Assembly: GCA_011319805.1 (NCBI GenBank)
Contig: SJRY01000182.1
Location: 34,335-98,334, forward strand
DNA length: 64,000 nt
Direction: 5' to 3'
Origin: Macrocybe gigantea
Lineage: Eukaryota; Basidiomycota; Agaricomycetes; Agaricales; Callistosporiaceae
The notes under the pieces were generated by a model. It ran no database searches and was not told the DNA's origin. It worked only from the letters and a program-made list of their open reading frames with translations. Below are positions 1-64,000 of the stretch, in pieces (within the stretch, counting starts at the first letter, position 1; each line of letters opens with the position of its first letter). Made by a program: the position numbers and the translations under genes.

Positions 1-2330
1 GTTGTTGTGGGACTTCGTGCGGGTGCAGGGGTGCGTGTTTCTTTTGTCGGATGATTTTGTTTCGCTGACATGTTTCGCATCCATTGACATACTTCTTGAT
101 GTCTGTCAGCATTGATGGCCACCAATAGGTGCGGCTTATGAGCTCGTGCATGCGGTATTGCCCTGGGTGTCCTCCGATGGGTGTGTCGTGGTGTTCAAAC
201 ATGATGTTTTCCTTCAGTTTGTTGTCTGGAGGAACATAGATTTTTCCTCCTACGTATACGATGTGGTCATCTTCTGTGAACCAGTGTGGTTTTTCCTTCA
301 GTCCTGTTGTTACGATCGTCTCCCTTCGTGTGCATTGTCGAATTTGTTCTATCCTTGAGGATTCGATCATCGTGATTCCTCTTGTTTGTATTGTTTCGTT
401 ATTTTCTGCTTCTTCTTTCGTGGGTGTTCGTCCTCGAACATCATAAATTCGAAGTCTCGTTCATTATTCTCTTCCAGATGTCGAATGAATGCTGCTTCTT
501 TGATCATTTGTATGTCGTCCTTCTCTGCTAGGTTTTCTTCATATCCTGCCATTCGTGACAGGACATCCGCTTTTCCATTCGCCTTTCCTGGTACGTGTCG
601 TAGTTCGTAGTCGTATTCCTGTAATTTCAGGTACCAGCCAATCTGTCTCGAATTGAGTCGCTGCGGCTTCCGGAAGTATGATAGGTTCTTGTGATCCGTC
701 AATATTTCGAACTTCTCTCGAGCTTCGAGGAGGTATTGTCTCCATGTCTTTAGTGCGACCATTATCGCAAGAAGTTCCTTGTCGTAGATTTCGTAGTTTT
801 GTTCCGCTGGGGTCATGCATCTCGAAATGAATGCGATCGGATGCCATAGTCCTTTCTGCTGTTGTGATAGTACCGCTCCAATGGCATATCCTGAGGCGTC
901 CGTTTCGACTCGGAATTTTCCTTCTGTCTGTGGTAGTGCTAGAATGGGTGCTGAGGTTATATGTCGGATCAGTTCTTTGAAAGCGCCTTGTTGCTTGTCT
1001 GTCCACTGGAATGTTTTGTTTCCAGTCAACTCCGTCAGGGGTTTAGCGACCTTTGCATATCCCTTGATGAATCGTCGGTAAAAGTTCGTGAATCCCAAGA
1101 ACTTTTGTAGTTCTTTCTTCGTCTTTGGGGTTGGCCAGGATTGTACGGCTGTGATCTTTTCTGGTTCCATTTCTACCTTCCCTTCTCCTACGATGTATCC
1201 TAGTACTGGGACTTTCGATGATTCCCAGACGCATTTCGGTCCTTTGATGAACAGGTCGTTCTTGTTCAGTATTTCCATGACTTCTATGGTGTTCTTTTGG
1301 AGTTCCTCTCGTGTTCGTCCGATGATTATGATGTCGTCCATATAGATTATGCATGCTCTTCTTCGTATTTGGTCTTGGAAGAGGCTCGCCATCATTCGGC
1401 TAAAAGTGCCTGGTGCGTTGCACTGCCCAAAATACATGACTGTCGGTTCGAAGAGTCCTCTTGCTGTTAGGAAGGCTGCCTTCCATTCGTCCCCTTTCCG
1501 ATGCGCACGTTATTGTACCCCAGATAATATCGATCTTGCTAAAGTACTTTGCTCCTTGTAGTACGTCGAGGAGCTCGCTGATGCGTGGTAGTGGAAACTT
1601 GTCCTTGACCGTATATTTGTTTATTTCCCGGTAGTCTTGGATGAGTCGCTTGCTTCCATCCTTCTTATTGCGAAAGAAGCAGGGTGCTGCGTAAGGTGAT
1701 TTCGATGGGCGTATTTTTCCTGTTCGTAATCCTTCTTCGACGAAGGCATCTAGTTCCTCTAGCTCTTTCTGTGTCATCGGGTAGACCTTGCTCGGTATCG
1801 TTTTGGGTGCATCCTTGTTAAGTTTATTTCATGGTCCCATTCTTTGTGGTCTGGTAAGCGATCAAAGTTCTTCTCCTTGAAGAGGTGTTTGAATCTGATC
1901 AGATATGGGGGTATCTGGGTTCCTGTCTTGTCGCTGGCTGTGGTTTTCGCTGGTTCAGCCACCTTCTGTATCTTGATCGTCTGGTGGTTTATTTTGCACG
2001 TTTTGGGGCATCTGTCGAAGACAATTTCTCCTGTCCTCCATTTGATTGTTGGGTTGTGGTAGACAAGCCAGTCATGTCCTAGTAGCATGTCGGTTTTTCC
2101 GATATCGAGTACGATGGCTTCCATATGCTCCTTGTGTCCTTTAATGTCGATGTGGACCTCCGCTACTCGGTCTGCTGTTTTCTGACGATTGGGTGATCCG
2201 TCTGCATTTATGATGGGAATTTCTTGATTCGTCGTGTCTTCAGTCCGTTTTTGCTACTATCGCGGTGTTGATGCAGGTCCTATCCGCTCCGCTATCAACT
2301 TCTGGTGTTATCGTTGTGATTCCTTTTCGG
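1..2330 (-). CDS. pol: pol of the gypsy element: protease, RT, RNase H, start of integrase (partial, frame broken)
   Basis: The protease active site DSGAD lies at 2288-2296. The retropepsin C-terminal part follows (IGKTDMLLGHDWLV, about 2060-2110). Reverse transcriptase begins near 1770 and carries FRNKKDGSKRLIQDYR, YFSKID, QCNAPGTFSRMM and the catalytic YMDD in CIIYMDDIIII (about 1330-1350). RNase H follows with DASGYAIGAVLSQQ, YDKELLAI and ILTDHKNL (about 680-910). Integrase enters with the H2C2 zinc finger (HHDTPIGGHPG...YWWP...CETCQRNK) at about 40-205 and leaves the window before the catalytic core. Frame changes near 1508-1530 sit inside the conserved WGYNNVRIRKGDEWKAAF stretch and are each restored by one added base, so activity cannot be excluded on this evidence. 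There is also a frame change near 2250. Confidence 0.9.
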
Positions 2331-2519
2331 TTCGTATCCTTGCTGGTACTGCGAGCTCTTTCCTCTTTGGTGGTTTGTCCCCTTGGATGGTTTTTCTTGG
2401 TGCTTCAGATCGCTTGGCAGGAATGGTGTATTTCAGAGTATGGGATGATCTACATCCGGTATCGAAGCGAGTCTGTTTCAGTTGTATGGGTCGCGATTTA
2501 GCACCTCCTAGTCGGACCC

Positions 2520-4260
2520 TTCGGCAAAACCCTCTTTGTCAGAGCTTTCTTCATCCTTGTCTTCTTCGTCCTCTCCTTCTTCTTCTTTCACTTCTCTGAC
2601 CCGGGATTTTCCTTTCTTCTTCTTCTTGCAGTTTCGTGCATAGTGTCCCTTTAAGCCACAGTTGAAACATGTGACATTTGCTGCTCCTTTTCGTGGTTCC
2701 GGGCAGTTTCGTGAGAGTGTCCTGGTTTATTGCAGTTGAAGCAGTTGTTGCTTCGTACTTTGTCGACTTCCATGGCCTGTCCTGCTCCTCGGCTTGGATT
2801 TCCGGCCTTGCGCTGATTGCTTGTGAATTCTCCTCTCATCACATTTCTGTGTTCATCGATGTTTCGTCCAATGCTCGAACTGTCTTGATATATTCATCTC
2901 CATCTGTTGGAAGTGTGGAGATTGAGTGTACGGCTTCTGCTGTCCTTCGGTTTAAGCTCTTCTCGAGTAGGAAACGAGGGGCTGTTCCTGTCATTCCTGC
3001 TTTCCCTGCGAGGTCTACGAATTCATCCAGAAATTCGTCGATGGGTCGGTTTCCCTGTCTGATGTTGAATAGTTTGCTTCCTGCTTGTGATGGCGACATG
3101 ACGTTGCTGAATCGTGTCTCTATCTCGGTTATGAAGTCGGCCCATGTGCTTTGGTTGGTAGTGGTGTCGATCTTCTTTGATGCCCAGTGGGCTCCGGGTC
3201 CGTCGGTCATTCTAGACAGGACCGCTCCAATCTTCTGTGTATCCGTGAGGTCCCATGTGCGGTTATGTAGAGTTTCATCTTTCTCCACCAAATATCGAAG
3301 GACGTTCGATCTCCTGTAAAGGATTTCGGGTCGGCGATGATTCCCTTGTATTCTGTCGTCATCCTTTGGGGGTTTTCTTCGTCGTTCTCTTGGTCTTGGT
3401 CTTCCTGTTCCTGGATCTGTTGTTCTTGGGTCTGCTGTGCTTGTACTTGGGCTTGCTGTTCTTGGAGCTGTTTCTGTCTTCGCTCCTCTCTCTGTTCTTT
3501 CCAGTAGTCTAGGTCGACTCCTGCGATTCTACAAGCTTGTTCAAAATCGGCCCACTCTGCGGCGGTCGGTCCGGTTGTCTTTGGTAATCCTTTTCGCTCC
3601 CTCCACCGATAGTATTCGTCCCAGTCGCTGTTGCTTACTTTCGCCACGGTGGTGCGATTCTCTCCTTATGCAGTGCTTCGGCGGATTGGTCCTCTGAAGG
3701 GTTTGGCGGTTTCGTTCCTGTGTGTCCTTGACTCTGGTGTCGTTCTCGTTGGTTCTGTCGTACGCTCTGTGCGTCGTGCCCTCTCTGTATCAGTATGTCT
3801 TCCTCCTGTGTTCGGCGATTATAGTTCTCGATCTGTTGTCGCCTAAAATCTCGGGCTTGTGTTCGTTCTTCTCTTGTTTTCTTGCGGATGGGTTCGTCCT
3901 CTTCTTCGGCAAGAAGATTCTGGTCTGACCACAGCTCTTCTGGGCTTATCCCGTATTCTCCTTCTAGGAAGAGTTCTGCAATGAGTTGTGCTGCTCCTTC
4001 GCTGAGATCTCAGCGGGCTCGTCTGTGGTGGTGAAGGCAAACTCTCTCAGAAATGCCTGTTCTTCGTCGTCGCTACTTGGTGTAGGCGTGCGCTCTCTCT
4101 TTCGTTTATTTGGATTGCTAGTGTCTCTGCGGATGGCGTGGACTGTCTCTGCGAATGGCGTGGACTGCAATGTCTGGTCTACTTCTCTGAGCCAAGTGCT
4201 CTCGTCGCTCGTGCTAGTGCTCGCTGGGTCGGCGACCGCTTGTCGTCGAATGTTGATCAA
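2520..4260 (-). CDS. gag: gag of the gypsy element, frame broken
   Basis: The coding track starts just inside the LTR and proceeds through an acidic, charged N-terminus (KRKRERTPTPSSDDEEQA), a glutamine-rich stretch near 3400-3480, the retrotransposon gag core (FDIWWRKMKLYI, then RTWDLTDTQKIGAVLSRM at about 3190-3300) and two zinc knuckles (CFNCNKPGH at about 2735 and CFNCGLKGHYARNC at about 2660), ending in a lysine- and glutamate-rich tail. The frame changes near 3980, 3262 and 2712, and each change is explained by one missing base. No ATG is seen at the upstream end of the open frame, so the start is not fixed. The function is capsid formation and binding of element RNA. The domain identity is clear, but the exact ends are not. 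Confidence 0.8.
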
Positions 4261-4313
4261 GTCTTTGATAAAGCGTGACGTGGTGTGTGTGTGAGTCTGA
4301 GCGAGTCTCGACG

Positions 4314-4326
4314 AGGCTTAATATCT
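4314..4326 (-). promoter_or_regulatory. Primer-binding site, self-priming (Tf1/sushi) type
   Basis: Directly after the LTR end, the minus strand reads AG and then ATATTAAGCCT (4324-4314). This is the exact reverse complement of AGGCTTAATAT at 4412-4402, the predicted first 11 bases of the transcript. It does not begin with the TGG that a tRNA 3' end would need. The arrangement matches the Tf1 family, in which the 5' end of the RNA folds back, is cleaved and primes minus-strand synthesis. Confidence 0.78.
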
Positions 4327-4646
4327 TGTTAGGCTAGACGAATCTCAGAAGGACTCGGGCAGACTAAGTGCGAGAGTGGTCTTGAGATGATGGCAAAAGG
4401 AATATTAAGCCTAGCGCTACTGGTACATCTGGGAGTCCTTATATACATTACAGTACTCGAGCACGGACCATGGGCTGCGCAATGCTGTGGACTGCGGATG
4501 AGTAAGACTGGAAAGAGATGACTCAGGATGACTAGGGAAGTGGGATGACTCGATGGCTGCGCGCTGTGCAGCATGATGGGGGAGATAAGGGATGTGGGAA
4601 AGATAAGATAAGAAAATGAATAGTCCTTTGGGCAGCGTCTGTAACA
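4327..4646 (-). repeat. 5' LTR of the gypsy element (320 bp)
   Basis: On the minus strand the LTR begins TGTTA at 4646 and ends TAACA at 4327, a 5 bp terminal inverted repeat with the canonical TG...CA ends. It contains a TATA box (4439-4445) and is followed two bases downstream by the primer-binding site. The outer boundary is supported by the right inverted-repeat arm, which is identical up to 4647 and then reads unrelated sequence instead of LTR. The partner LTR is off the window, so the length cannot be confirmed by pairwise comparison. Confidence 0.82.
4439..4445 (-). promoter_or_regulatory. LTR TATA box, predicted start of RNA near 4412
   Basis: The minus strand reads TATATAA here. About 33 bases downstream, at 4412, begins AGGCTTAATAT, the 11-mer complementary to the primer-binding site. 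The spacing fits TATA-directed initiation at exactly the base that self-priming needs as +1. Confidence 0.75.
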
Positions 4647-4732
4647 AATCACCTCTTACATTTACTCCGCCGTCTCAGAGGCTGAGGTCGCTGTTCTCTT
4701 GTCATTATCCAGGCTGTCTAGCATGCTATCTG

Positions 4733-7258
4733 ATGCCTAAAGCTTCTTCTTCAGCTCACATGCTACGAACCAAGCCGTATGAGGCTTCACGGCAACCCAA
4801 GACCTTGTCCAAAGTCAATCAACAGAAGAACGAGCAGAGCCGCAAGTTTAGTCGCGCACCTACAACCGTCAAGAAGTATGACGAAAATGTCAAGCGTGCC
4901 CGCGGATGGTTGGCAAGCTATTTTCAATGTCCAAAGGAGGAAGACGAGGATGGGAGGGGTGTCATGGTGATGGCCAGCGATGAAGATGAGCTTGGGCCTC
5001 CTATGGTGGACGACAACATCTATAACGACCCTCAATTCAAGCATGCACTCAGCGACGTACCAAACCAATACTCAGACAAGGCCCTTGCCCTGTACATGTT
5101 CTTCAAGGTTTTCCACCAGAACTGTGGCCAGAACACGGCCGAAAATGCCTACTCAGCCTTCAAGGCTCTTTGGGAACAGATGTGAGTAAGCCATTGCTGT
5201 CACATAGGGCAACTCACCAAATTCAACTCGAAACAGTGGAGAGGGCATCTACAATGGGAAGTGGGGCTATAATCCACTGCAGGACCGGTGGGAAGGCAAC
5301 CCGGCGACATCACCTGAGGTCCAGCATGTGCGAAAGGCCGTGAGGAACAAGTGTGGAACTGACCGAGGAGACCGCAAGCATTCTCTGCCAATGTCGAAGG
5401 AATATATGGACCGTGTGTTTGCATGGTCAGAAAAGGCATGCCCAGCAGCCTTGTTTGAGTCGCCGTCAGAGCTGATAGCAGAGCGAGCATTGAAGGTGAA
5501 GCATCTTGAGTTTCGCGCATTCGCAGCGACTGGCTGGACGATCTGGTCAAGGTACAGAACATCGTGCATTATTCAAAACACTCACGACATTGACCCACAT
5601 GTGTGCTGTCTTCAGAAATTTTGAGCTAGTCAAGCTACGGAAGAAGGACATCAGCGACATCACGTCTGATCCATCGAGGTACAACAGGCCGTACTTCACC
5701 TTGCACCTTGAACATCGAAAGGGCTGGTTGAGGCAGCTGGACAAGACATTAAAGGAGCCAGACCTGAGAAGTACGTGTGCCGTCAAACTCATGTCCATGG
5801 AATGTAATGCTGATGAGAGAAACTCACATGGTCAGGTAACACGTTCAAGATCTTCCCCCAGCCCAGCCTTCCTGCATGCGACGCCCATGTCTGGCTACGA
5901 AAATGGATTCACTTTTTGGAAAACGAGATCTACGGACGGCACCTCTTACCAGAAGACTACATCTTTCCTGCCATGGGTGCCAATGGACTGGTGCAGCCAG
6001 GTGAACACATCAGTTATGACATGGTGCAAAAGTGGTTGAATGAGTTTACCATGAATGCACAGCTTCCACGGGTGAATGGAGCTAGTTTCTCAACACATTG
6101 CTTCCGACGCGGTGGAGCCCAGTACCGGTTTATGTTCGCACCTGTTGGTCAGCGGTGGAGCTTGCGTGTCGTGAGATGGTGGGGTGGATGGGCTGAAGGG
6201 GAACAGGTGAGTGCCAGTATTCACGCCGCTCTCCATCACTGAAATTCTTACCTTCATCCCAGCGCGATACCCTCATCTGCTACCTTCTGGACGAGCTTCA
6301 GTGGTACGAGAGTGACCACAGCGATGCACTTGCCTCCATCCAGCACAACACTGACATCTCATTCTTGGGCGAGCATCAGCTTGTGGCACCTGCCACGGTT
6401 GGAGAGATGTGGACAATGTATTCCGCACTATCAGCAGACATTGCGCGGATCGAGAGTCATGTCACGGCACTCCGAGAAGTGGCCATCGCAAGTCTTGCTG
6501 CCATTGCTTGCACTAGCGGTACGTTCTTCTCCATTTCTTTCTTCGCAGTCTCTCTCTGACTAACAGGCTATCCTATAGCTGTCTCCAAGGTCCTCGGGAG
6601 CACTCATCTCCACATGCAATCAGATCGCCATGCCACTCTGATTGCACCACCACCCCCTCCGTCCTCTGCCAGTGACTATCTCCTTCCTCACACCATTTCC
6701 TCGACTCCTCCATCTTTCTCCATGACACCCACAGCTCCTGTTCCCTCAGGCCTCATGGACCATTCCCAGCCAGATCCAGTTAGCATGGCCAGGACAAGCC
6801 GACCGAAAGCGAGCTCGAACATCGTCCCACCATTCAAGCTGGTGATTCCGGATGTTCCAGGGAAGGACGGCCAGGGGAGATCACTGCCACGTTCGGATTC
6901 ATGGCGTGAGATTGTGCAGCACTGGGAGCACGGCGCGCCATCTCGTGGGCTGCAAACGGCACTGAAGGATTGGCTGGAGGAGTGGCTGAAGGGCAGCAAC
7001 AGGAAGCTTTTTGGGTCAAAGTATCATATGCGGCGCATCATCGCCGAGGAATTCCTCTGCACGTAAGTTCTCATTTCAACCTCAATTTCTCATCGTGCTA
7101 ATTCTAATTGTTCATGCCCCCCTTGCTCAAGGTATGGACGAGACGAAGCAAAGTTCCTCAGCGCTTATCCCAAGGCCAACAATGGCCATTCAGCTCTCTT
7201 CGCAGCCATCAATATTGCACGAGAGAAGCGCGGCGACCTCAAGCCTCGCAAGCGGTGA
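4733..7258 (+). CDS. Crypton-type tyrosine recombinase, left copy
   Basis: The gene has seven exons: 4733-5181, 5237-5551, 5616-5770, 5836-6206, 6263-6518, 6579-7062 and 7132-7258. All introns are GT-AG, and 2157 nt of coding sequence give 718 residues with no internal stop. The tyrosine-recombinase catalytic set is visible: Arg255 in SRNFELVKLRKKDI, His394-x-x-Arg397 in STHCFRRGG, a GGW motif, and Tyr437 in LICYLLDEL. The N-terminus (about 30-150) looks like a SAM-like core-binding domain. After a proline-rich linker, the C-terminus (about 590-690; WREIVQHWEHG...DWLEEW...MRRII) resembles the GCR1_C DNA-binding domain that typifies fungal Cryptons. The protein would cut and rejoin DNA through a 3'-phosphotyrosine, moving a circular intermediate. 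Two residues differ from the presumed ancestor through CpG decay: Cys436 (Arg in the other arm), next to the nucleophile, and Trp480 (Arg in the other arm). The family call is from motifs, not from a search. Confidence 0.88.
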
Positions 7259-7722
7259 CTTGCCAGAGTCCCTTTCCTTTCTTTTTTCCTTCGTCCTTCC
7301 ACCTTGATAGCTTACATAGTCTTCGTATTACTCCTCTGGAATGCTTTCGTTGCTTTCGTCACTCGCTTTCCCGTAGTTTCCGATTTATCTTACAGACAGG
7401 TAACTGCACCATGTAATTCTGCTGATATGATACTCAAGAATTTTAATCGTCTCTTTTTTGTGATGTTCTCTTGGCAATGAGCAAGAAATGCCGAGGACGA
7501 TGTGGCGTGCATGGTTGGACATGGCCCGCATTATTCCTCTCCACCCTGCACCCTGCACCCTCGGGCTCGATCTTTCCCTCTTTTTTTTTTTTTACGATGA
7601 TTACACGTATGCAACGGGCACCATCTCACAGCTCGTAACCTTTGGGTTATGGATCGGTTATCCCAGGGCAGGAGGTATAGAGAACAACCACAACTACAAG
7701 CTATCTCAATCACGGTGACTGC
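7259..7722 (+). other. Recombinase 3' flank in the left arm
   Basis: This stretch of 464 bases after the recombinase stop contains pyrimidine-rich sequence, a short direct repeat (CACCCTGCACCCTGCACC near 7551) and a T13 run (7581-7593). I see no gene in it. Its mirror image is 10565-11027. Confidence 0.6.
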
Positions 7723-8650
7723 TGCATTGTTACTCATGATCCTGGGCTTAAACTTGACCTATTTTCAACGTAGATTACGGGCGTACATCGGCCGCTGCCG
7801 CGCGATGCGTCATTGTGGAGATATGGGAGGTAGATGGGGGGAGGGGGGATGAGCACAGCACCACAGCTTGCTTCAGTGACTTGTGCATTGTTCCTCATGA
7901 TCCTCAACTCCAACGTGACCTATTTCCGACGTAGATTACGGGCGTGCAACGCCTGTTGCTGCGCGACATGTTGTTGTGGAGATGAGGTGGAGGGAGGGCT
8001 GATGAGCACCCCAGCTTGCCTCGGTGAGTCCTGCATTGTTTCTCATGATCATGGGCTTAAACTCGACCTATTTTTTGACGTAGATTACGGGCGTGCAATG
8101 CCTGTTGCCGTGTGATGCATCGTCGTGGAGCTATGGGAGGTGAATGGGCTAATGGCGACACAGAGGTGCATCTCGACGCTCGATGAGTCCTGCACATTCC
8201 CCCGTGGTCCTGGGCTCCAACCTGACCTATTTTTGACGAGGAATCCAGGCGTACAATTGGCGCTGCCGCGCGGTGCGCCGTTGCAGAGATATGACATGTG
8301 AGGTCGTGGCATCATGGAGAACGACAGCCCCATCTCGGTGAGTCGTGCATATTTTTTCATGGTCCTAGCCTCGAAACTAGCCTGTATTTGGGCAACAATT
8401 GCTGGCGTGCAATCGGCGCTGTTGCGCGGTGCGTCATTTGAGAGGAGATATGGGACATGGGTGGAGTGACGGAGAGCCACAGCCCCATCTCGGTGAGTTC
8501 TGCCTATCTCCTCATGATCCCGAACTCAAACTCGACCTATTTTGCATGCAGAACACGGGCGTACAAGGGGCGTTACGGTGCGGCATGGTGTTGTCGAGAT
8601 ATGGGGAGGTTGACGGGGTCACACCTCACTCATGTACTATTTACCAGTAT
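7723..8650 (+). repeat. Six degenerate tandem repeats of about 155 bp, left arm
   Basis: Units begin with TGCAT/TGCC-like sequence at about 7723, 7884, 8032, 8191, 8346 and 8501, so the spacings are 161, 148, 159, 155 and 155. Each unit carries the same ordered landmarks: CTCATGATC or a variant, GACCTATTTT, a variant of TAGATTACGGGCGTGCAA, a GC-rich stretch like GCTGCCGCGCG, and GGAGATATGGGA, ending in CGGTGAGT. The copies are far more diverged from each other than the two arms are, so the array predates the inverted duplication. Short open frames inside it look incidental. The function is unknown; an array of protein-binding sites is one possibility. Confidence 0.85.
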
Positions 8651-8969
8651 CGTTCCTAAAAGATGTATTGGAGTTTCGATGCGCTGATGCTCCCTCGTGC
8701 ATATCGAGCTGTCCACGTCCCCACGTCGATGCCCGACGAGCGGGCTGCATGGGGCCCCCACGCGCACCTATGGGTCCATATATTCTGCTGTTTGTGACCA
8801 AGGCCCCAGCGCGCCGCGAAACGGTGACGAAACGGCAGCATTACATCAGCGGCACCCGCCCATGCCGGGGATGCCGGAACTCCGCCCATCACCTGGCCTC
8901 ACATTACCGATCGGCGATCACGCAGTCGTTCCCACCCCGCCAACGGGGCGTAAATTTCTCAGAGAAAGC

Positions 8970-9317
8970 GTGAGGCTAGCCAAGTCTCTCTTGGCCGAAA
9001 AGTTCACCGCTCCTAAGTAACTTACCTCAAACCCATCGTACTCTGCTCACAATATTAGGGTCTCTGGCCGGCGCGCATGTGATAACTTCACTATTATCAT
9101 GGTGCTCAATTCAATTCTCAACTCCGAGTTGCACCTTGAAGTGTAGGAGCAGACGAAGCCTAATCTGGCCTGTGTATGTACGTTAGCTCAACATATTTTC
9201 GGGCTTGCGAACCACGAGGCTCTTACACACCAGAATATTTGACTACCACGCGAAGCGGCACTAATAGATTAGACGGTGTGAGCATCAACATGCTATCCCG
9301 CATTTCGAATCGTGGGT
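8970..9317. other. 348 bp unique spacer between the inverted arms
   Basis: This sequence is present once. It has no convincing coding frame and no obvious similarity to either arm. The junctions are sharp: AGAGAAAGC followed by GTGAGGCT on the left, and, read outward from the right arm, AGAGAAAGC followed by ACCCACGA. If the arms are two separate insertions, this is host DNA trapped between them. If they arose by inverted duplication, it is the loop sequence. Confidence 0.7.
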
Positions 9318-9636
9318 GCTTTCTCTGAGAAATTTATGCCCCATTGGCGGGGTGGGAACGACCGCGTGATCGCCGATCGGTAATGTGAGGCCAGGTGATG
9401 GGCGGAGTTCCGGCATCCCCGGCATGGGCGGGTGCCGCTGATGTAATGCTGCCGTTTCGTCACCGTTTCGCGGCACGCTGGGGCCTTGGTCACAAACAGC
9501 AGAATATATGGACCCATAGGTGCGCGTGGGGGCCCCATGCAGCCCGCTCGTCGGGCGTCGACGTGGGGACGTGGACAGCTCGATATGCACGAGGGAGCAT
9601 CAGCGCATCGAAACTCCAATACATCTTTTAGGAACG

Positions 9637-10564
9637 ATACTGGTAAATAGTACATGAGTGAGGTGTGACCCCGTCAACCTCCCCATATCTCGACAACACC
9701 ATGCCGCACCGTAACGCCCCTTGTACGCCCGTGTTCTGCATGCAAAATAGGTCGAGTTTGAGTTCGGGATCATGAGGAGATAGGCAGAACTCACCGAGAT
9801 GGGGCTGTGGCTCTCCGTCACTCCACCCATGTCCCATATCTCCTCTCAAATGACGCACCGCGCAACAGCGCCGATTGCACGCCAGCAATTGTTGCCCAAA
9901 TACAGGCTAGTTTCGAGGCTAGGACCATGAAAAAATATGCACGACTCACCGAGATGGGGCTGTCGTTCTCCATGATGCCACGACCTCACATGTCATATCT
10001 CTGCAACGGCGCACCGCGCGGCAGCGCCAATTGTACGCCTGGATTCCTCGTCAAAAATAGGTCAGGTTGGAGCCCAGGACCACGGGGGAATGTGCAGGAC
10101 TCATCGAGCGTCGAGATGCACCTCTGTGTCGCCATTAGCCCATTCACCTCCCATAGCTCCACGACGATGCATCACACGGCAACAGGCATTGCACGCCCGT
10201 AATCTACGTCAAAAAATAGGTCGAGTTTAAGCCCATGATCATGAGAAACAATGCAGGACTCACCGAGGCAAGCTGGGGTGCTCATCAGCCCTCCCCTCCA
10301 CCTCATCTCCACAACAACATGTCGCGCAGCAACAGGCGTTGCACGCCCGTAATCTACGTCGGAAATAGGTCACGTTGGAGTTGAGGATCATGAGGAACAA
10401 TGCACAAGTCACTGAAGCAAGCTGTGGTGCTGTGCTCATCCCCCCTCCCCCATCTACCTCCCATATCTCCACAATGACGCATCGCGCGGCAGCGGCCGAT
10501 GTACGCCCGTAATCTACGTTGAAAATAGGTCAAGTTTAAGCCCAGGATCATGAGTAACAATGCA
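9637..10564 (-). repeat. Six degenerate tandem repeats of about 155 bp, right arm
   Basis: This is the mirror image of the array at 7723-8650. It carries no substitution relative to the left copy; the only differences are the two G-run length changes. The two arrays lie closer to the central spacer than the recombinase genes do. Confidence 0.85.
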
Positions 10565-11027
10565 GCAGTCACCGTGATTGAGATAGCTTGTAGTTGTGGT
10601 TGTTCTCTATACCTCCTGCCCTGGGATAACCGATCCATAACCCAAAGGTTACGAGCTGTGAGATGGTGCCCGTTGCATACGTGTAATCATCGTAAAAAAA
10701 AAAAAGAGGGAAAGATCGAGCCCGAGGGTGCAGGGTGCAGGGTGGAGAGGAATAATGCGGGCCATGTCCAACCATGCACGCCACATCGTCCTCGGCATTT
10801 CTTGCTCATTGCCAAGAGAACATCACAAAAAAGAGACGATTAAAATTCTTGAGTATCATATCAGCAGAATTACATGGTGCAGTTACCTGTCTGTAAGATA
10901 AATCGGAAACTACGGGAAAGCGAGTGACGAAAGCAACGAAAGCATTCCAGAGGAGTAATACGAAGACTATGTAAGCTATCAAGGTGGAAGGACGAAGGAA
11001 AAAAGAAAGGAAAGGGACTCTGGCAAG

Positions 11028-13553
11028 TCACCGCTTGCGAGGCTTGAGGTCACCGCGCTTCTCTCGTGCAATATTGATGGCTGCGAAGAGAGCTGAATGG
11101 CCATTGTTGGCCTTGGGATAAGCGCTGAGGAACTTTGCTTCGTCTCGTCCATACCTTGAGCAAGGGGGGCATGAACAATTAGAATTAGCACGATGAGAAA
11201 TTGAGGTTGAAATGAGAACTTACGTGCAGAGGAATTCCTCGGCGATGATGCGCCGCATATGATACTTTGACCCAAAAAGCTTCCTGTTGCTGCCCTTCAG
11301 CCACTCCTCCAGCCAATCCTTCAGTGCCGTTTGCAGCCCACGAGATGGCGCGCCGTGCTCCCAGTGCTGCACAATCTCACGCCATGAATCCGAACGTGGC
11401 AGTGATCTCCCCTGGCCGTCCTTCCCTGGAACATCCGGAATCACCAGCTTGAATGGTGGGACGATGTTCGAGCTCGCTTTCGGTCGGCTTGTCCTGGCCA
11501 TGCTAACTGGATCTGGCTGGGAATGGTCCATGAGGCCTGAGGGAACAGGAGCTGTGGGTGTCATGGAGAAAGATGGAGGAGTCGAGGAAATGGTGTGAGG
11601 AAGGAGATAGTCACTGGCAGAGGACGGAGGGGGTGGTGGTGCAATCAGAGTGGCATGGCGATCTGATTGCATGTGGAGATGAGTGCTCCCGAGGACCTTG
11701 GAGACAGCTATAGGATAGCCTGTTAGTCAGAGAGAGACTGCGAAGAAAGAAATGGAGAAGAACGTACCGCTAGTGCAAGCAATGGCAGCAAGACTTGCGA
11801 TGGCCACTTCTCGGAGTGCCGTGACATGACTCTCAATCCGCGCAATGTCTGCTGATAGTGCGGAATACATTGTCCGCATCTCTCCAACCGTGGCAGGTGC
11901 CACAAGCTGATGCTCGCCCAAGAATGAGATGTCAGTGTTGTGCTGGATGGAGGCAAGTGCATCGCTGTGGTCACTCTCGTACCACTGAAGCTCGTCCAGA
12001 AGGTAGCGGATGAGGGTATCGCACTGGGATGAAGGTAAGAATTTCAGTGATGGAGAGCGGCGTGAATACTGGCACTCACCTGTTCCCCTTCAGCCCATCC
12101 ACCCCACCATCTCACGACACGCAAGCTCCACCGCTGACCAACAGGTGCGAACATAAACCGGTACTGGGCTCCACCGCGTCGGAAGCAATGTGTTGAGAAA
12201 CTAGCTCCATTCACCCGTGGAAGCTGTGCATTCATGGTAAACTCATTCAACCACTTTTGCACCATGTCATAACTGATGTGTTCACCTGGCTGCACCAGTC
12301 CATTGGCACCCATGGCAGGAAAGATGTAGTCTTCTGGTAAGAGGTGCCGTCCGTAGATCTCGTTTTCCAAAAAGTGAATCCATTTTCGTAGCCAGACATG
12401 GGCGTCGCATGCAGGAAGGCTGGGCTGGGGGAAGATCTTGAACGTGTTACCTGACCATGTGAGTTTCTCTCATCAGCATTACATTCCATGGACATGAGTT
12501 TGACGGCACACGTACTTCTCAGGTCTGGCTCCTTTAATGTCTTGTCCAGCTGCCTCAACCAGCCCTTTCGATGTTCAAGGTGCAAGGTGAAGTACGGCCT
12601 GTTGTACCTCGATGGATCAGACGTGATGTCGCTGATGTCCTTCTTCCGTAGCTTGACTAGCTCAAAATTTCTGAAGACAGCACACATGTGGGTCAATGTC
12701 GTGAGTGTTTTGAATAATGCACGATGTTCTGTACCTTGACCAGATCGTCCAGCCAGTCGCTGCGAATGCGCGAAACTCAAGATGCTTCACCTTCAATGCT
12801 CGCTCTGCTATCAGCTCTGACGGCGACTCAAACAAGGCTGCTGGGCATGCCTTTTCTGACCATGCAAACACACGGTCCATATATTCCTTCGACATTGGCA
12901 GAGAATGCTTGCGGTCTCCTCGGTCAGTTCCACACTTGTTCCTCACGGCCTTTCGCACATGCTGGACCTCAGGTGATGTCGCCGGGTTGCCTTCCCACCG
13001 GTCCTGCAGTGGATTATAGCCCCACTTCCCATTGTAGATGCCCTCTCCACTGTTTCGAGTTGAATTTGGTGAGTTGCCCTATGTGACAGCAATGGCTTAC
13101 TCACATCTGTTCCCAAAGAGCCTTGAAGGCTGAGTAGGCATTTTCGGCCGTGTTCTGGCCACAGTTCTGGTGGAAAACCTTGAAGAACATGTACAGGGCA
13201 AGGGCCTTGTCTGAGTATTGGTTTGGTACGTCGCTGAGTGCATGCTTGAATTGAGGGTCGTTATAGATGTTGTCGTCCACCATAGGAGGCCCAAGCTCAT
13301 CTTCATCGCTGGCCATCACCATGACACCCCTCCCATCCTCGTCTTCCTCCTTTGGACATTGAAAATAGCTTGCCAACCATCCGCGGGCACGCTTGACATT
13401 TTCGTCATACTTCTTGACGGTTGTAGGTGCGCGACTAAACTTGCGGCTCTGCTCGTTCTTCTGTTGATTGACTTTGGACAAGGTCTTGGGTTGCCGTGAA
13501 GCCTCATACGGCTTGGTTCGTAGCATGTGAGCTGAAGAAGAAGCTTTAGGCAT
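11028..13553 (-). CDS. Crypton-type tyrosine recombinase, right copy
   Basis: This is a mirror copy of the gene at 4733-7258, with the same seven-exon structure and an intact reading frame of 718 residues. It keeps Arg255, His394, Arg397 and Tyr437. Here residue 436 is Arg, giving LIRYLLDEL, which is probably the ancestral form. Residue 431 is Cys instead of Arg, caused by a CpG transition at 12023, the first base after the intron 4 acceptor. Two further CpG transitions (11835 and 11052) are silent. Both copies are therefore full length, but each is altered at a different arginine within six residues of the catalytic tyrosine. Whether either enzyme is active cannot be told from sequence. The gene is transcribed toward the spacer, opposite to the left copy. 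Confidence 0.88.
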
Positions 13554-13639
13554 CAGATAGCATGCTAGACAGCCTGGATAATGACAAGAGAACAGCGACC
13601 TCAGCCTCTGAGACGGCGGAGTAAATGTAAGAGGTGATT

Positions 13640-14397
13640 GATTTGAAATTTCACTAACGGCAACTTGTCCTTCAAGATGTGAGTGGTCCGCGTCCTTGGG
13701 CCAGGGATGCAGAGGTTAAATTTAACCACCATTTTCCTCTTGCAGGAGGAAAGCTTGGAAAGTGAGCTGATGACTTTTTTTTACAGTAAAAATCGTAAAT
13801 ATCTGAGGTGATCGTACAAAGGGTGCAGAGGATCCTTTGCACTGGATACACTTTCCAGCTGTCACCTTCTTCCGTTTCACAGATCTAATCATCATTGTCG
13901 CAAGCTGTTCCTGATACTGTTTATTACTCTAATTGCTTGGCCTCCATGGAGGTGAGCTCTGGTACAATTCTCAGTATTTTCTTTCCTCAGTACTACCCCA
14001 GAACAGCCAGTAATGTACCAAATTCATGTAAACTACATTCTGCCAGTAGCCTTGCTCTTTGCAGGAGATGGAGCACACCTTGCGAACCCGAACAAGCGCG
14101 CGGCGTCCGCGCCTCGAGGCTCTCTCATTTCGCAGGGCTCACTTGGCGCTGGCGGACTTTGAAATCCCACCGGCACGGCACTGGCCTCGTACGATCATTT
14201 ACCGCTGATCGGGTTTGTCAGCGTAAATATCCCCAGAAAAAGATGCTTTTCGGCCGAGTCACGTGAAACTCATTTATGGCTTCTGCGATCAGAATGGTCT
14301 CGTCAAGTCGCAGGCATGAGGCCTGTCCAACAATTTCTATGTAGCCACCCCCTTATACACTTTTGACGAACCTTTTTTTTTCTTTCCATCTATCACT
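13640..14397. other. Intergenic stretch outside the right arm
   Basis: No gene is supported here. It contains a short palindrome around GGATCC (13820-13839, GTGCAGAGGATCCTTTGCAC, one mismatch pair) and the promoter of the gene at 14398. The first bases (GATTTGAAATTTC) are the counterpart of the site where the gypsy element sits in the other arm. Confidence 0.6.
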
Positions 14398-28763: not shown

Positions 28764-31335
28764 CTAGTCGATTACCATCCTCTCTCCTTGCACAGAGTCG
28801 TCCGCGATCGCCAACTCGTCCACCGGCATCATCTCTCTCTGCTTCTCCCGCGTATACTCCTCCAAATCGTTCATTGCCTGCTTGTCTGCATCCTCCAGCA
28901 TCTTCGTCCTCGACGGCTTGTAGATCGTCGGATCTACCGCATTATAGAACCCCGGGTAGAGGCCCTCTAATGCCCACAAATTATTCGCTTCCATGAGGAC
29001 CGGGTTGGAAATCGCTTTGTACACCTCGTCGGCGAGCAACGGATGTGACAGAATCCGAGGATAGTACCGGCCGGCGATCAAGCTCAGAGAAACTACCGCC
29101 TCGTACCCTTCCTGCAGTATTGGTCGAAATCGATAACCCTCTGGCGCTTCGGGAGGGAAGTAGGGTGTCGACGACGGATGCGACAACTGCTTGCTCGAAC
29201 ACGCGTAGGCTGTATCCTCGGAAGGCTCATCAGGAGGCGGAGTCGTGCGTGCCAGTTGCGATGTTGAAGCAATAGGCTGTGTCGTTAGGGCTTCTTGGTT
29301 TGGCTCTTCCCAGTCCAGATCAGCGAGTTCATACAACATCCCGCATGCCCTGCACTCCTTTTTCGTAAATCCATCAGGCTGCACCGCGTCCACGACGAAC
29401 AGGCCGTCCAACCTCATAAACACACTCCGAGCCCCAGCCCCGACTTGCGAAGGATCCCGCCCTTGTGCAAGCCACGGTTTTTTCGACTCGTTCCCAGAAC
29501 CAGATGGAGGGAGAATGTGCTCGGCTCCTGCGGGCGCCAAGCACCGACGAGGAATCTTGAGTCGAACAAACTCATCTATCCATATCCGTTCGGCGCCCCA
29601 CCACAGGCCCTGGAACCGCAGTTGAGTGCGTTGAATCGGCGGCGACGAGGTATCCGATAAATACTGTCGGCCAAGCAACCGTGTAGACAGCCTCTCGACG
29701 TCCGACGACGGCATATTAGGCTTTGAACCCGATGCAGGGTACGGCTGCGATGCGCTGGCGGGCGTCATATGTGAAGTGTTGTGACGACTGGCAGCTTCGA
29801 TTGCAGCTTTGAGGGAAATCGGGCCCGTATCGGTTGGAGGCGGAGCAGGAGCGGGTGCTGGCATGCCATTGGCAGCAGTCTGGCTGGTAGGGGAGGTGGC
29901 GGCGAAGGTACAGGTGCTGGAGCTGAAAGACGCTTCTGAAGACGAGGAGCAGGCATGGTGTATACAAACGCCCATTCATCCGTGAGGCTCCAGAATCCGG
30001 ACAGCGCTGAGCCTATTTGGACGGCAAAGGCATAAGGCGCAATAGCGTCTGCGAAAGCAGGTGGAGCTCCTCCAGGACATGGATGGAAGCTTGATAGCTT
30101 ATGTCGATCAAAATTCAAATTTTGAGGCGGAAAAGCTTGCAATTCCGCAATGAGGTCGTTTGGTAAGACATATGCTTGATATGGTAGGACCCGGTCGTCA
30201 GGCGCCAGATGTGTCTGCGAGACACCAAGAAGCCGTATTTTATAAACCGTAGACTGGCGTATTGACCATGGAACAGAATCGGTCTCAAACACCACGTCTT
30301 CGTCGTTGGTAGGATTGCTCCTCGATGGGGAAGTAATCGGAGTGCCATTTGATGTCCCATCGACATGTATCGGCTCCGTCCGCAGGTTGGTTTCATCCAC
30401 AATCCCAGGCCAGAATTTGATAGCAGCATTGGGACCTGAGCTAGGTATAGGCGGGTCAAGAGCGCACCACACCAATTCTCCTGACCTAAACCACCTTTTC
30501 AGCTTCATATCTGTTCTTGAATGCGTTGCTCTGAGGTCCGCGTTGCGCTCGACGAGCATGACCTGATCAGCGACCTGGGGTGATTTCTTTGACAGTGGCT
30601 TGGGAGCCTTCTGTACCGCAGCAAAGACTTGTGCATTCCGCTCTGCGTTTTGAAGTGCGGTCTCGCGCATGCCTCTGATCTTGTCGCGAGGCTTTAAACG
30701 GCTGGGTCCCGGAGATTGCGAACCAGAGCCAGCACCAAAGATGAGCACATTCGGAAGCGCAGCTGTGACCTCCTTTTGCGGCTTCTTCGAACAGTACTTG
30801 CATTGGCAGTTTGCAGAATTCATCGTAGCATCTTGTAGGAGCCATATAACGTGAGGAAGGAATTCGTTGACGGATCGAAAACGGGCTTTGCCTCCTGTGC
30901 AGAAAAGAGGGTTGCGTCAGAGAAATTCAGATAGCCGCCACCCGGACGTACCAAATAGGTACAGGTCATGACGTGGATTGTCTGCTGGTCCCTTGTTATG
31001 GTCGAACAATTGATATCCGGTGGGCCAGCCTCTCAGTACATAAGTGGGACCGGCTAAGGAAGATCAATACATGCAGGCTCGGAGTCGCAAAATCATGTCT
31101 CACAAGGAAGATTCAACGCGACAGATGCGCCTTGCGCAAGATTCAGCCTCCATCTGATTGCGGGGCCTGCGTCGATGTCGACGGGGTCCATAAAGTTGAG
31201 CTGACCGTCTGCATCGACGGAACGGGTGGTGTTGGTGGGCCAAGTGCGGGAATCGCCGTCGGACCTCTCAAACTCTATAAATGACGCGTTCGATGGTATA
31301 TTTGCAGGCTTGTCGGCTATCCGTCTGGCCGACAT
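28764..31335 (-). CDS. clr2: Clr2-like transcriptional silencing protein
   Basis: The first exon (MSARRIADKPANIPSNASF at 31335) joins across an intron at LPS/GPTYVLRGWPTGYQLFDHNK and then to GGKARFRSVNEFLPHVIWLL and NCQCKYCSKK. This is the Clr2 N-terminal block with its CxCxxC motif. A second conserved block (RSGELVWCALDPPIP, IKFWPGIVDE) resembles the BAH-like part, and the C-terminal block runs through LRFQGLWWGAERIWIDEFVR and WALEGLYPGFYNAVDPTIYK to the stop at 28764. In fission yeast, Clr2 is part of SHREC, the histone deacetylase and remodelling complex that silences heterochromatin. One frame change near 29888, in a proline-rich stretch with a CCCC run, is best explained by a missing C. 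Confidence 0.85.
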
Positions 31336-58145: not shown

Positions 58146-61100
58146 ATGGCTAAGGAAAAACCATCGAAAGGCCTTACAAAAGGCCAGAAATCAATTAAGC
58201 AATTCTTTGGAGGAGGCAAGAAGAAAATAGTCAAAGACGACGCGTCGGATGAAGAGGACACGTCGGACACCGCTGCCAGCGCACACGGCTCAGACGTCGA
58301 TATGGACGACTCCGTCGCAGAGAGAAAGGAGCTAAAGCCTCTGCGCCAGATTCTTCTGACCTTCCTCCGATACACAACATCCCCGCCATTTTCGACGACC
58401 TAGTCAGTCGGATACCTCAGATCAAAGATGTCACTGAGCACATCGCTGGACGCAAGCTGCGCGTCGCGACGATGTGTTCTGGAACTGAGTCACCGCTTCT
58501 AGCTCTCGAGATGATACAGAAATCCATCGAGGAGCAATTCGGTGTCGTACTGGACATAGAACATGTCTTCTCATGCGAGATAGAGCCGTTCAAGCAGGCG
58601 TATATTGAACGGAATTTCCAGCCACCTATCCTTTTCCGTGACGTTTGCGAGCTGGGAGAAGACGAAGCGTGAGCAGAGTGGTCATCGAAAATCCGCGTGT
58701 CGTACTTATCTCGCTTCTAGCCATACAGCGTATGGTGCTCTAGCTCCTGTGCCGGGGGATGTCGACCTTCTCGTCGCTGGAACGTCTTGCGTTGACTATT
58801 CAAATCTTAATACGCAAAAACAAGATATAGATGCTAACGGAGAATCTGGACGGACATTTCGTGGGATGATGACATGGGTTACAAAACACAGGCCCCCTAT
58901 CGTCATATTAGAGAACGTCTGTTCGGCGCCTTGGTCCAAGGTTCAGACGTACTTCGAGCAAAACGGGTACAGCGCTACCTTTACAAGGGTCGACACAAAA
59001 CACTACTATATCCCTCATACGCGCACACGAGTTTATCTTGTTGCGGTAAATAAGAGAGGGTCAAGCATACCTAACGGCTGGAAGGAGTGGGTCACGTCAA
59101 AACTCAAGCGCCCTGCTTCGTCTACACTAGATGCTTTCCTTCTGCCTTCTGACGATCCGCGCATCCATCAAGCACGGCAGAAACTCGTCCAAGAGAGCTT
59201 AATGCTCTCGATCGGCGGACCGGAAGAACGGATTGGGGTCGCTGTGAATCGCGACACCAGCGTGCTAGACTTGAAGAATCTCTCGGTTCAAAAAGGCCAT
59301 TGACAAGTTGGGATGAAGGTATGCTTGCAGATATATCTTGCACTGCATGCACTGTTAACAGCGAACTCGCCGTAGGTGGATATTGCAAGCTGCCGATTTT
59401 GCTTGGAATGACTGGGGTATCGGGCAAGTAGAGCGAGTTTGGGACTTGATGGATATCAGCTTGCTTCGATCCGCCGTGAAAGGTGTCGATCCGTCGTACA
59501 AGACGTGAGTATGCGATTATTGACCTTCTTTTCGTCCTGGCGCTTGAACTATCTGCAGAGTCGTTTGGAACCTCTCCCAGAACGTCGATCGTACCATCGG
59601 CTCTAGCAAAGTTGGCATCTGCCCATGTTTGACACCGTCAATGATTCCTTACATCACGAACCGTGGCGGACCCATGGTGGGCCTGGAAGCGCTCTCTATG
59701 CAAGGTCTCCCTGTAGACAAGCTGCTTTTGACTCGCGAAAGCGAAGACCAATTAGCCGACTTAGCTGGAAATGCATGTCTACTACAGTGGTTGGCGCGTG
59801 CATCCTGGCGGCTTTGGTGACTGGCAAGAGACTGCTTAAGGCAGGCGATGACATTCAGTCTTACGAAGCCAAGGCCAATATCGCAGAAGCGACTGAAGAA
59901 GTCGGCAAGATGGAAGTCAACGTGCCTGCCGAGGACTCGACTGGGAGCATCGTTGGTGAGGAACAACTTTCCCGTCGAGCTCTAGATCTCACCACCACGG
60001 ATACGCTGCCCTTTGCCGAACTTCTCGAGGACGCAATGAAGAGTGCCAGATTATGCGAATGTGAAGGACGCGCGGATATTACTACTCGCGAATTATACCG
60101 TTGCAGCGACTGCGGAGCTTCGTCATGCAAAAAGTGCGGTGGACGCCCTGAACACAATCCTTCCTTGATTGACACAACAGCCAATCCTCGGTTACCACCC
60201 TCGAACTTTGCTCAGAAGCTGAAGTCGGCGTTGCCAATGTGCATATCTGTTAGCGAAATTAAGCAAGACCTTCTCGATGCCTTGCGGGAAGAATCGAGGT
60301 CACAATCCCGCATAAGCGATGGACAAATTGGTGTGACGCCGTTCTTCGAGCCACTGGTTCCGAATTTCGGTTTTCTGAGATCAAACGACAGGAGATATGG
60401 AGTGCAGTGTACCGTTCCGCTGCGGGAACGCTCGAGCTTCTCCTGCACCCAAAACAGCCAGAATGGAGGATGTATGCAGATCCCAACGACGAGGAGCCTG
60501 CCAATGCCGACATTCGCCGCATCTTGGAGTGGCCAGTCGGTCGCTTCAAACTCAGCGGAGGATTGCTTAGAGGCATTTGGGAATTTGCCTTGCCCTTCGC
60601 CACCACCATTCCGTTGAAGATCAAGGGTGTTGGAGAACTCGTCCCTCTTGGGAGGCGAGACTCGGTCTAAATGGAGAGGACTTCCGCAATAAACTTGTCT
60701 TCTCATGCCTCGAGATAACAGTGGATAACGACCGCGCCGGGCAATTGGACCGCGACATATCCGGTACCTACCGCTCGCTTGATAAATGCGGTACTGCAAA
60801 TGGGGCGTTGCACAAGAAAGACGCCGACGCTAGAGATTCCGACCTGCCTCCGCTTTTCATGCTTTTCGACCCTCATCGCACGGATGACTCCCAAGACTGC
60901 TTTGTATTCTCCATTAGCAAACGACGGTACGAATACGGAGAGTCTCGTCCGATTATCTGCAAGTTGGATTCGCGTTGGAGGCAATCGAGCAAGGACGAAG
61001 AACAAGAAGTGTCCTGTACCATACCCATCAGGTGGATATCGGCGTCAGCAGTGAAATTCCAGGTAGGTTGTAGAACTTTACGTGCGACTTGCATCTAATA

Positions 61101-64000
61101 TTGTCCAGCCATCTTGTCGCGAGGGTTCCAGCTGTAGTGTGCCATCCCACTCCATCAGCATATCAGTTTCAACTGAAGCATGCAAAACTGCAAACGCCTT
61201 TCTCGTTTGTAGTGTCCCTCTGCATGGTCAAGCCGGGCCCGAGTGGCCGCGTGGTGCATGGAAAGACGTCGACAAAGTGCACGAGCGATCGATTTTTAAA
61301 GCCCTCGCCTGGGTTCTGGAAAGAGTGCGTCACTTCGACAATAGTTATAATACCTGGCAAAGCATCAATGCGGAGGGTCAGTCCGAGAACTGTGAACGAT
61401 GTGCACCCACCGCACCAACGTTGCAATGGACCAAAATTAACAAGAAAGTAGTTGCGATCGAAGATCCTGGTCAGGCTGGCGAGTACGAACGAAGGTTGAA
61501 GAGACGCCCTAGCCCATTTATTACCCAACTCATGCTCGATGATCGAGGCGTCGGCACTGTTCGCGTCGGCGTCAATATACCTACCCTTCTTCACCGTGCG
61601 TTATCCCGACTGCCATCCGAGAACAGACCTGCGCCCGCATCGTTATCATGGCGCATAAACACGGATTTCACGCCCAGCGTAGCGATCAGTTTACCAAAGT
61701 TCCGAATCCTTAGCAATAAGAAGGACAAAGAGCATGCTCAACCCCCGCATTTCAGTTTGCCGTTGCGGAAGGAACAACTGCGATCTCTAGAGTGGATGCT
61801 TGGCAGGAATCGCACGATGCGGAACCATTCATTGAAGAGGAAATCTCCGAAGCGATTCTTAGCCCTTTGGGCTGGAGAGCAGAAGGTAGGGCGCAACGCT
61901 CCGTGCGTGTCAGGGGTGGCGTCCTCGCAGACCAAGTCGGCTACGGAAAAACCGCGATCACTTTGGGACTGATCGATTGTGCATCACGGAGCGTCAAAGA
62001 GGAGTTCTCGAGGATGGGCCGCGTTCCTGGAAAGATCGCTGTCAAAGGGACTTTGATCATCGTCCCGCCTCACTTGACCAGACAATGGAATTCTGAAGTG
62101 ACAAAGTTCACAAAGCACAAGTTCAAGGTTCTCGTGCTATCGACTGTGGCAAACCTGAATAGCACCACTATCGAAGACGTTCAGGAGGCTGACATTATCG
62201 TCGTCGCTTCGAATATCTTCAAAAGCAATGTCTATCTTGAAAACCTTCAGCTTCTCGCCGCTGCCGGGGACTTGCCAGCCAAGGATGGCCGCCATTTTAA
62301 GCTCGTCTCAAAGAGTGCTTAGAATCTTTGAAGCAGCAGACGGATAGATTGCATGACGAAGGTTCTATCGCCGTTATGGAGGAAATCAGGGCCGCTCAGG
62401 AACGAGGTGCATGGCTTGTCTCTTCTGTGTATCGGTCTTGCTGAAAAACCGTAGCAGCTGAACAAGAAGCAACAGCAGCCGCTGCCGCATTAGCACAATC
62501 GAAGAGACTGAAGGGCAAATCTTATCGTGAGGCAGCCGAGAAGAAAGAGAAAGGAGCCACGAAGCACCAAGCTAATGCTGCGCCTAAGAAAGCCGCGCCT
62601 GCTAAGAAAACGCCATCGGGCCTTATCATGGAAGTTGTCCTCCCTGCGCGACACAAAGTAGGCCATACGTCCTCTTCAGACGCTGAAGGTTCTGCTGAGG
62701 AATTGGGCGCGATTTGCCTCGCCGCCCGAAGCGGAATGTCAAGAGGTTACGGATAAACATCTCCGACGATGAGGACGAGGAAGAGGAGACCAGTGCAAAG
62801 TCTTCCCGCAAGCAGACAAGTCCCGGAAAGGTACTGCTAGAAGGAAAGGGAGTGATTCCTCCGACTATTCGGAAGAGCCCACTGAAAATTCGGAATCCGA
62901 AGTGGAAGAGCCACCCTTCACCTCTGACGACGACGCGAGCACGGAAGTTTCGACCAGATCGCTCAAGATTAAATCAGCCACAAAGGGCAAAAGCGTCCGG
63001 AAAGACTTCTCAAGCTTCCAGCTCGCTCGCTGTTGATAGCGACGACGACATGGACGTGGATGACGATCCAAGAAGAAGGGTAAGGCCGCCAAGCGCAAGG
63101 CGGACGACAGCGACGAGCGCCCGGCCAAGAGGCAAAAGCGAGCCGAATCTGACCCCTGGAAACTTCAATCATGGGAGGTCCGGCGGGACTGGACGCAAAT
63201 GAAGGCACCTCCTCTTGAAATGTTCCACTTCACACGTAAGGTCGTCGACGAGTACACGTACCTGGACGGAAAAGTGCTTTCCCTTGTGACGCAGCTGACG
63301 GCCGAACGACTCTGGGTCCTGTCTGGAACGCCACCTATTCATGACTTTGCGGCGTTGAAGACGATTGCGAATTTCCTGAACCTGCATCTTGGCGTCGACG
63401 ATGACGGCGAAGGTCAGTCGCTGAAATCAAGAGGCGTCGCAAGGAGCAAACAGGCATGTCCGGTGTCATTCTCCACAGTCATTGCAGCTGATGGTCCGTA
63501 ATAGCCGTGGAGAAATTTCATTCCTTCCGTGAAGTTCACAGCCTGGAATGGCACGCACATCGACATCAGCTGGGCCAAACCTTCCTTGACCAGTTCGTAC
63601 GGCAAGTACGTAAAATGCCCACCTGGTCTTGATTTGAGCTAAACAAAGTTCAGAACATCGCCGAAATCGACGAGATACCATGGACAGAAAAGATTCAGAG
63701 GATTGCTCTGCCTGCCGCCGAGCGTGCCATCTATCTCGAATTGGAACACCACCACTTTCGCGCCCTCGATATGACAATCAAGCGAGGCAGAAGACGGAAA
63801 GCGATCGAGAACGACGGCTGGCGCAATCTCTTGGAGAGAGCAAGTGAGTGATTATTACATGCCGCCGACGTAAGTCATTGAGACTGACACAATCCAGGAC
63901 TGCGGAGGAGGCGCTTCTCAAGCGATGTTCGCACTTTGACTTGGAGATGTCCAATGAGAACGCTATGAAAGCCTGCGATGTCATCGTGAAGGAACGACAG
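58146..64000 (+). CDS. DNMT5: DNMT5-type maintenance DNA methyltransferase with SNF2 ATPase (3' end outside the window)
   Basis: The cytosine methyltransferase domain comes first: motif I in VATMCSGTESPLLALEM, motif IV with the catalytic cysteine in AGTSCVDYSNLN (Cys codon 58788-58790), motif VI ILENV, motif VIII HYYIPHTRTRVYLVAV and motif X DLAGN (about 59765). A cysteine finger follows (CECEGRADITTRELYRCSDC, then CKKCGGRPEH). The SNF2 half has Walker A in GGVLADQVGYGKTAITLGL (about 61915), LIIVPPHLTRQWN, DEYTYL near 63250 and LWVLSGTPPIHDFAA near 63315, then runs off the window. The N-terminus has no chromodomain but has a PIP box (Q14-F21). DNMT5 uses ATP to methylate hemimethylated CpG. 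The frame is broken near 58300 (perhaps an intron) and, by single missing bases, near 59200, 59773, 60298, 61803, 62303, 62813 and 63067. No nonsense substitution was seen. Confidence 0.92.
58185..58208 (+). other. PIP box (PCNA-interacting peptide) in the DNMT5 N-terminus
   Basis: Residues 14-21 read QKSIKQFF, an exact match to Q-x-x-[ILM]-x-x-[FY]-[FY], in a basic context (KGLTKG before, GGGKKK after). Confidence 0.85.

Follow-up and report, generated by a model that had tools for sequence, protein, structure and literature searches.

Introduction

CryptonF transposons, as described in the part of PMC3212892 available to us, lack long terminal inverted repeats, have short direct end repeats that form the junction, carry one long gene and insert precisely. 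The accessible part of PMC4352252 reports a C-to-T signature confined to CpG in transposons of three basidiomycetes (weak in two of them) and credits it to deamination of methyl-cytosine. The excerpt of PMC13297926 at hand names DNMT5 and DNMT1-RFD as the enzymes that maintain CpG methylation in Basidiomycota and describes methylation as concentrated where transposons are abundant. Here we analyse a stretch of 64,000 nucleotides from the basidiomycete Macrocybe gigantea (assembly GCA_011319805.1, contig SJRY01000182.1, positions 34,335 to 98,334, forward strand; referred to as the window), in which two inverted copies of a 4.93-kb Crypton-like transposon differ almost only by transitions at CpG.

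The element shares with CryptonF the four properties listed above, as far as the consulted part of that source goes, but its protein has neither GCR1_C nor a recombinase family match in Pfam. The decay has in common with the cases in the accessible part of PMC4352252 that the CpG-only C-to-T signature is found on transposon copies. It differs from them in that individual sites can be followed here in an inverted pair that is very young, and in that unique DNA compared between haplotypes serves as a control. We put the probability that the pair decays at CpG through deamination of methyl-CpG on transposons at roughly 90%.

Results

The inverted arms are located at 4647-8969 (plus strand) and 9318-13639 (minus strand), where they flank a 348-bp spacer with 99.7% identity to each other in BLAST. 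Aligned by BLAST and also globally, the arms show 10 mismatches over 4324 columns, at left-arm positions 6263, 6278, 6410, 6451, 7234, 8730, 8812, 8924, 8944 and 8950. All ten are C/T or G/A differences, and the arm carrying the C or the G always has CG at that place. The original prediction had named these ten positions and described every one as a CpG transition, which both alignments bear out. Three 1-base indels, on which the original prediction, being about substitutions, is silent, also separate the arms, one in a T run (7581) and two in G-rich runs (7836 and 7991). In the chance model 476 of the 4323 positions lie within a CpG retained by at least one arm, and the probability of finding ten out of ten substitutions in CpG is 2.6e-10 when all bases are considered and 1.6e-7 when the count is restricted to C/G bases. 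The pattern between the arms is real and significant.

The direction of the changes was read from a third copy of the element on another contig (C146), in which CpG is intact at all ten sites. This polarisation assigns four losses to the left arm and six to the right, the same split as had been predicted. A first cluster of losses (6263..6451, plus strand) lies entirely in the gene of the element, with 6278 and 6410 lost in the left arm and 6263 and 6451 in the right. A single loss at 7234 (plus strand), also in the gene, belongs to the right arm and is synonymous. The second cluster (8730..8950, plus strand) is found at the 3′ end past the gene; 8730 and 8924 were lost in the left arm and 8812, 8944 and 8950 in the right.

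Contig C275 appears to be the second haplotype, as it is collinear with the flanks and also contains the DNMT5 region discussed below, at 96% identity over 3.3 kb. Compared with the window over unique DNA (the flanks together with the remainder of the window), it shows 2450 substitutions in 53,007 aligned sites, of which 640 (26%) are CpG transitions. The ratio of the rate at CpG to that at other C/G sites is 1.37 in unique DNA (confidence interval 1.24-1.50) versus 38.6 between the arms (interval 5.5-1677; Fisher P = 1.3e-5 for the difference) and 51.6 between the left copy and the third copy (13-447). Because the ratio is so much lower in unique DNA than in the arms, the CpG excess belongs mainly to the transposons, rather than to the genome or to base calling. 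Away from CpG, one of 4403 sites differs between the arms, compared with 1616 of 45,023 between the haplotypes. With non-CpG divergence as low as this, the pair is very young or has been homogenised.

Alignment of further copies, which the original prediction had proposed as a check, gave the same CpG bias. CpG transitions make up 28 of the 31 changes between the left and third copies and 30 of the 34 between the right and third copies (30 of 35 with four flanking bases included). In these two comparisons, as in the one between left and right (10 of 11 over the whole element), transitions are concentrated at CpG on transposon copies, and unique DNA is only weakly biased. Eleven further apparent CpG losses are common to left and right and absent in the third copy, and 13 are private to the third copy. 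Since left and right share these 11 losses, the source of the pair was probably already decaying before it was copied. Repeated loss at some of the 11 sites is possible, because some of the shared states recur in older copies.

Two such older copies, on contigs C65 and C129, are partial and leave 2111 shared columns for dinucleotide counts. On their own branches C changed to T at 37 of 195 CpG positions in C65 (19%) and at 48 of 209 in C129 (23%). The corresponding changes elsewhere are 6/280 at CA, 3/277 at CC and 4/234 at CT in C65, and 15/291, 11/282 and 3/236 in C129. The CpG count falls from 131 in the left copy to 73 and 62 in the older copies, a loss largely offset by a gain in TG+CA (from 315 to 373 and 372), with TA going from 71 to 73 and 84. 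The two old copies have a common 3′ flank and so probably represent a single ancient insertion, either as its alleles or through its duplication.

A gene of the DNMT5 type is predicted at 58605..63202 (plus strand), with methyltransferase, middle and SNF2 parts in that order in three open reading frames (ORFs); both window and contig end at 64000. The three colinear ORFs match PDB entry 7r76, labelled Rad8, with E = 1.2e-64 (methyltransferase), 2.6e-22 (middle) and 2.9e-38 (SNF2). We take this entry to be DNMT5 of Cryptococcus neoformans. The combination of a methyltransferase with an SNF2 ATPase is thus found as matches to a single PDB chain in the same order as in the Cryptococcus protein, and the three ORFs are predicted to form one gene. 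The window gene differs in being truncated by the contig end, and the comparison was made through the three ORFs only. A second methyltransferase is encoded on contigs C68 and C228, in versions that are 91.5% alike; its BAH match is weak and below the cut-off, and a search against PDB gave no match.

Other observations on the window and the genome are the following. Minus-strand ORFs at 28764-29975 and 26261-27301 have Pfam matches to Clr2 (transcription-silencing) and KAR9, respectively. The loci L028 and L029 are 99.97% identical over 3.47 kb and contain two internal stops; their weak match to Tet/JBP falls short of the Pfam threshold. Scanning the window for Rfam families and tRNA genes found nothing.

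The two arms belong to longer copies of the element. The right copy (9318..14249, minus strand) is uninterrupted and has AAAGC at its start and end. The left copy occupies 4647..8969 (plus strand) within the window, and the initial 615 bp, which count the 5-bp duplication, are found upstream of the window at C182:31857-32471 (C182 being the contig of the window). The AAAGC core is found at 8965..8969 (plus strand) at the 3′ end of the left copy, at 9318..9322 (minus strand) at the 3′ end of the right copy and at 14245..14249 (minus strand) at the right copy's 5′ end, and the same core is seen at the corresponding site of the empty allele. The left, right and third copies all carry AAAGC at both termini. 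A comparison of the element ends for terminal inverted repeats gave an imperfect 9-mer as the best inverted match. For the third copy, six empty sites in paralogous sequence contain one core each, AAAGC in four and CAAGC in two. The element therefore has the termini of a Crypton, that is, short direct end repeats, no long terminal inverted repeats and a single core in the empty site.

The gene of the left copy (4733..7258, plus strand) and that of the right copy (11028..13553, minus strand) fit a seven-exon model whose 718-aa product is open in all three full copies. CpG loss accounts for R436C and R480W in the left copy and for R431C in the right; the losses at 6451 and 7234 are silent and the five others lie outside the gene. 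By eye, the product has an HxxR...W...Y arrangement reminiscent of a tyrosine recombinase. A Pfam scan of the protein at E up to 5 returned no family, including no recombinase family and no GCR1_C, and the best match in a PDB search was an amylase at E = 0.65. By its termini and style of insertion the element best fits a Crypton-like transposon, and because GCR1_C was absent from the Pfam scan we do not assign it to CryptonF. Beyond the gene, the 3′ part contains an imperfect direct repeat with units of ∼155-160 bp (7709-8618), inside which the third copy has 29 bp extra relative to the right copy. Distant matches to the element protein, at 30-36% identity, occur at C244:116328-117102 and C171:223268-223546, and the genome may hold other families of the element.

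The left copy is cut by a long terminal repeat (LTR) retrotransposon, which the original prediction had overlooked. It measures 6509 bp (C182:32472-38980), and the part of it that falls in the window is 1..4646. It has TG...CA ends, matching end repeats (identical over 320 aligned bases) and a 5-bp target-site duplication, AATCA, of which one copy lies at 4647..4651 (plus strand). A longer BLAST match of the end repeats extends into the flanking DNA. On its minus strand it has matches to reverse transcriptase and RNase H. With 32 of 886 candidates scored, at least 30 genomic places, the window locus included, match window positions 1-4646 end to end at 98-100% identity. Because the right copy runs on to 14249 with the same 610 bp that are found upstream of the window for the left copy, the left limit at 4647 is the junction of the nested retrotransposon and not the end of the duplicated element.

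Contig C275 contains neither copy of the element and has the order left flank, spacer, right flank. Its junction cores are CGAGC on the left (site A) and GCTTT, the complement of AAAGC, on the right (site B). The spacer of the window (8970..9317; 348 bp between the two 3′ ends) aligns at 88% identity to C275:242503-242834, but in the opposite orientation to the spacer of this empty allele. As two insertions alone would not reverse the spacer, we invoke an exchange between the inverted copies, and one or more recombination events between the arms are probable. In a post hoc comparison, the final 240 bp beside the spacer contain 5 of the 10 differences between the arms, versus 1 of the 24 CpG differences by which both arms are set apart from the third copy (Fisher P = 0.005). 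Conversion of the remaining arm length would explain this clustering on the spacer side.

Discussion

The differences between the two copies are best accounted for by CpG methylation of the arms followed by deamination, a route we infer from the sequences. Two copies of one Crypton-like transposon would have entered a stretch of ∼350 bp in opposite orientations, recently and on one haplotype. The host would methylate the CpG sites of the transposon, and this would probably be kept up by the DNMT5-type enzyme of the window together with the second methyltransferase. Methylated C would then turn into T, taking CpG to TpG or CpA many times faster than other sites change. In so young a pair, hardly anything but CpG losses would have accumulated so far, affecting either copy and either strand. 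Some differences between the arms may also have been wiped out by exchange or gene conversion. Such methyl-CpG decay is ordinary for a methylating fungus; the reversed spacer is less so.

Several results weigh against this explanation or limit it. Over the whole element 1 of the 11 changes is not at CpG. It is a C/T difference in CpA on the right copy, and it was found in the extra 610 bp (13640-14249 compared with C182:31857-32471); the earlier statement that there is no non-CpG change thus stands for 4647-8969 against 9318-13639 but fails for the complete element. The arm differences are also unevenly spaced even after correction for CpG positions. Given these positions, the largest gap alone is unremarkable (P = 0.15), while the two largest gaps jointly have P = 0.01 and the presence of five differences within the last 240 bp has P = 0.003. 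The original prediction had also described the density as uneven. As the tests on the ten sites were picked post hoc with the data already seen, we regard the clustering as no more than suggestive. Without the branch filter, C65 has an excess of changes at CpA over CpT (41/542 versus 6/406), and at 15 of the 41 the two copies have CA and TG.

From the LTR family, which is unrelated to the Crypton-like element, we compared five copies out of the 30 places in ten pairs. In its three closest pairs the CpG share is high (13/18, 15/20 and 20/24). The seven pairs involving the copies on C22 or C75 have lower shares (26/66, 27/64, 29/68, 72/128, 75/127, 71/130 and 69/121) and are rich in non-CpG transitions with few transversions; C182 and C75, for example, differ by 38 non-CpG transitions and 2 transversions. 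The end repeats of the five copies, each compared with its partner, give 8 CpG changes of 14 in all. Changes private to C75 have no CpG excess over CpT (5/726 versus 6/870), and those private to C22 do have a CpG excess (50/726 versus 6 to 9 of 727-874 in the other contexts). CpG decay alone is insufficient to account for the non-CpG transitions of C22 and C75, and a further process rich in transitions, or an origin from different source lineages, may be involved as well.

The original prediction had left open whether deamination or a process resembling repeat-induced point mutation (RIP) was responsible. A premeiotic process that senses duplicated DNA and turns C into T at CpG would be expected to strike both duplicates, as is observed, and a TCG bias is described for Microbotryum in the accessible part of PMC4352252. 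The old copies have a mild excess at CpA or CpC over CpT as well. However, the changes are sparse (10 of 476 CpG positions) and their contexts follow availability without preference for TCG (ACG 3, CCG 2, GCG 4, TCG 1; chi-square P 0.58). The strands are mixed, 8 to 2 (P 0.11), TpA is little raised in the old copies, and the pairs that include the third copy have more changes than the left-right pair both at CpG and elsewhere. The dense C-to-T change at CpA or TCG with enriched TpA that marks RIP in duplicates is not seen, and we consider a RIP-like origin very unlikely. It is the deamination part of the earlier proposal that holds up, given the CpG bias of the other copies of the element and of the three closest LTR pairs, and its weakness in unique DNA. 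Errors of base calling at modified CpG, the case that the original prediction had named as refuting, or of assembly might be suspected from the three 1-base indels in T- or G-rich runs. Such errors would hardly leave the third copy in agreement with one arm at each of the ten sites, nor the heavy, fixed CpG loss on the own branches of both old copies, and unique DNA of the same assembly has only a weak CpG excess. We judge this source of the ten differences to be highly improbable.

For the reversed spacer, homologous recombination within the arms is the route that we prefer. In principle the flip could instead have happened on C275, although no inverted arms are present there to account for it. 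Spacers flanked by inverted repeats of 4-5 kb are known to be ambiguous in assembly, and the spacer may have been misplaced in orientation without any real inversion, a possibility that we take seriously but think doubtful. Each arm retains its own outer flank, and whole 6.5-kb LTR copies with 98-99.6% identity are assembled on separate contigs (four were read, from the 30 places), which suggests that the reads were longer than an arm. The putative recombinase of the element could also have inverted the spacer through the two AAAGC ends, as these 3′ cores are inverted and point towards each other, and the gene model is open in both copies. We find this unlikely, since ordinary homologous recombination in 4.3-kb arms is enough and the recombinase identity is a motif read by eye for which Pfam and PDB give no family. 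That the facing 3′ ends act as an inverted pair of recombination sites, at which the recombinase flipped and may still flip the spacer, so that the locus would be invertible, is an idea to which we attach little weight.

New here are the corrected anatomy of the pair, the single change outside CpG, the use of the second haplotype as a control and the reversed orientation of the spacer. No title or abstract opening in our literature search concerned an inverted Crypton pair with a flipped spacer, a result that does not extend to full texts, which lay outside the search, and does not show absence from print. Should the spacer truly be inverted, the locus would preserve a record of recombination between inverted Crypton-like copies, and the empty allele is available for comparison. 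The pair is a natural gauge of the mutability of transposon CpG, as it concerns one element in one place with the direction of change known and two haplotypes as a control. With a CpG excess of ∼39-fold between the arms and of 1.4-fold in unique DNA, the idea that methylation targets transposons can be put to a direct test at this locus.

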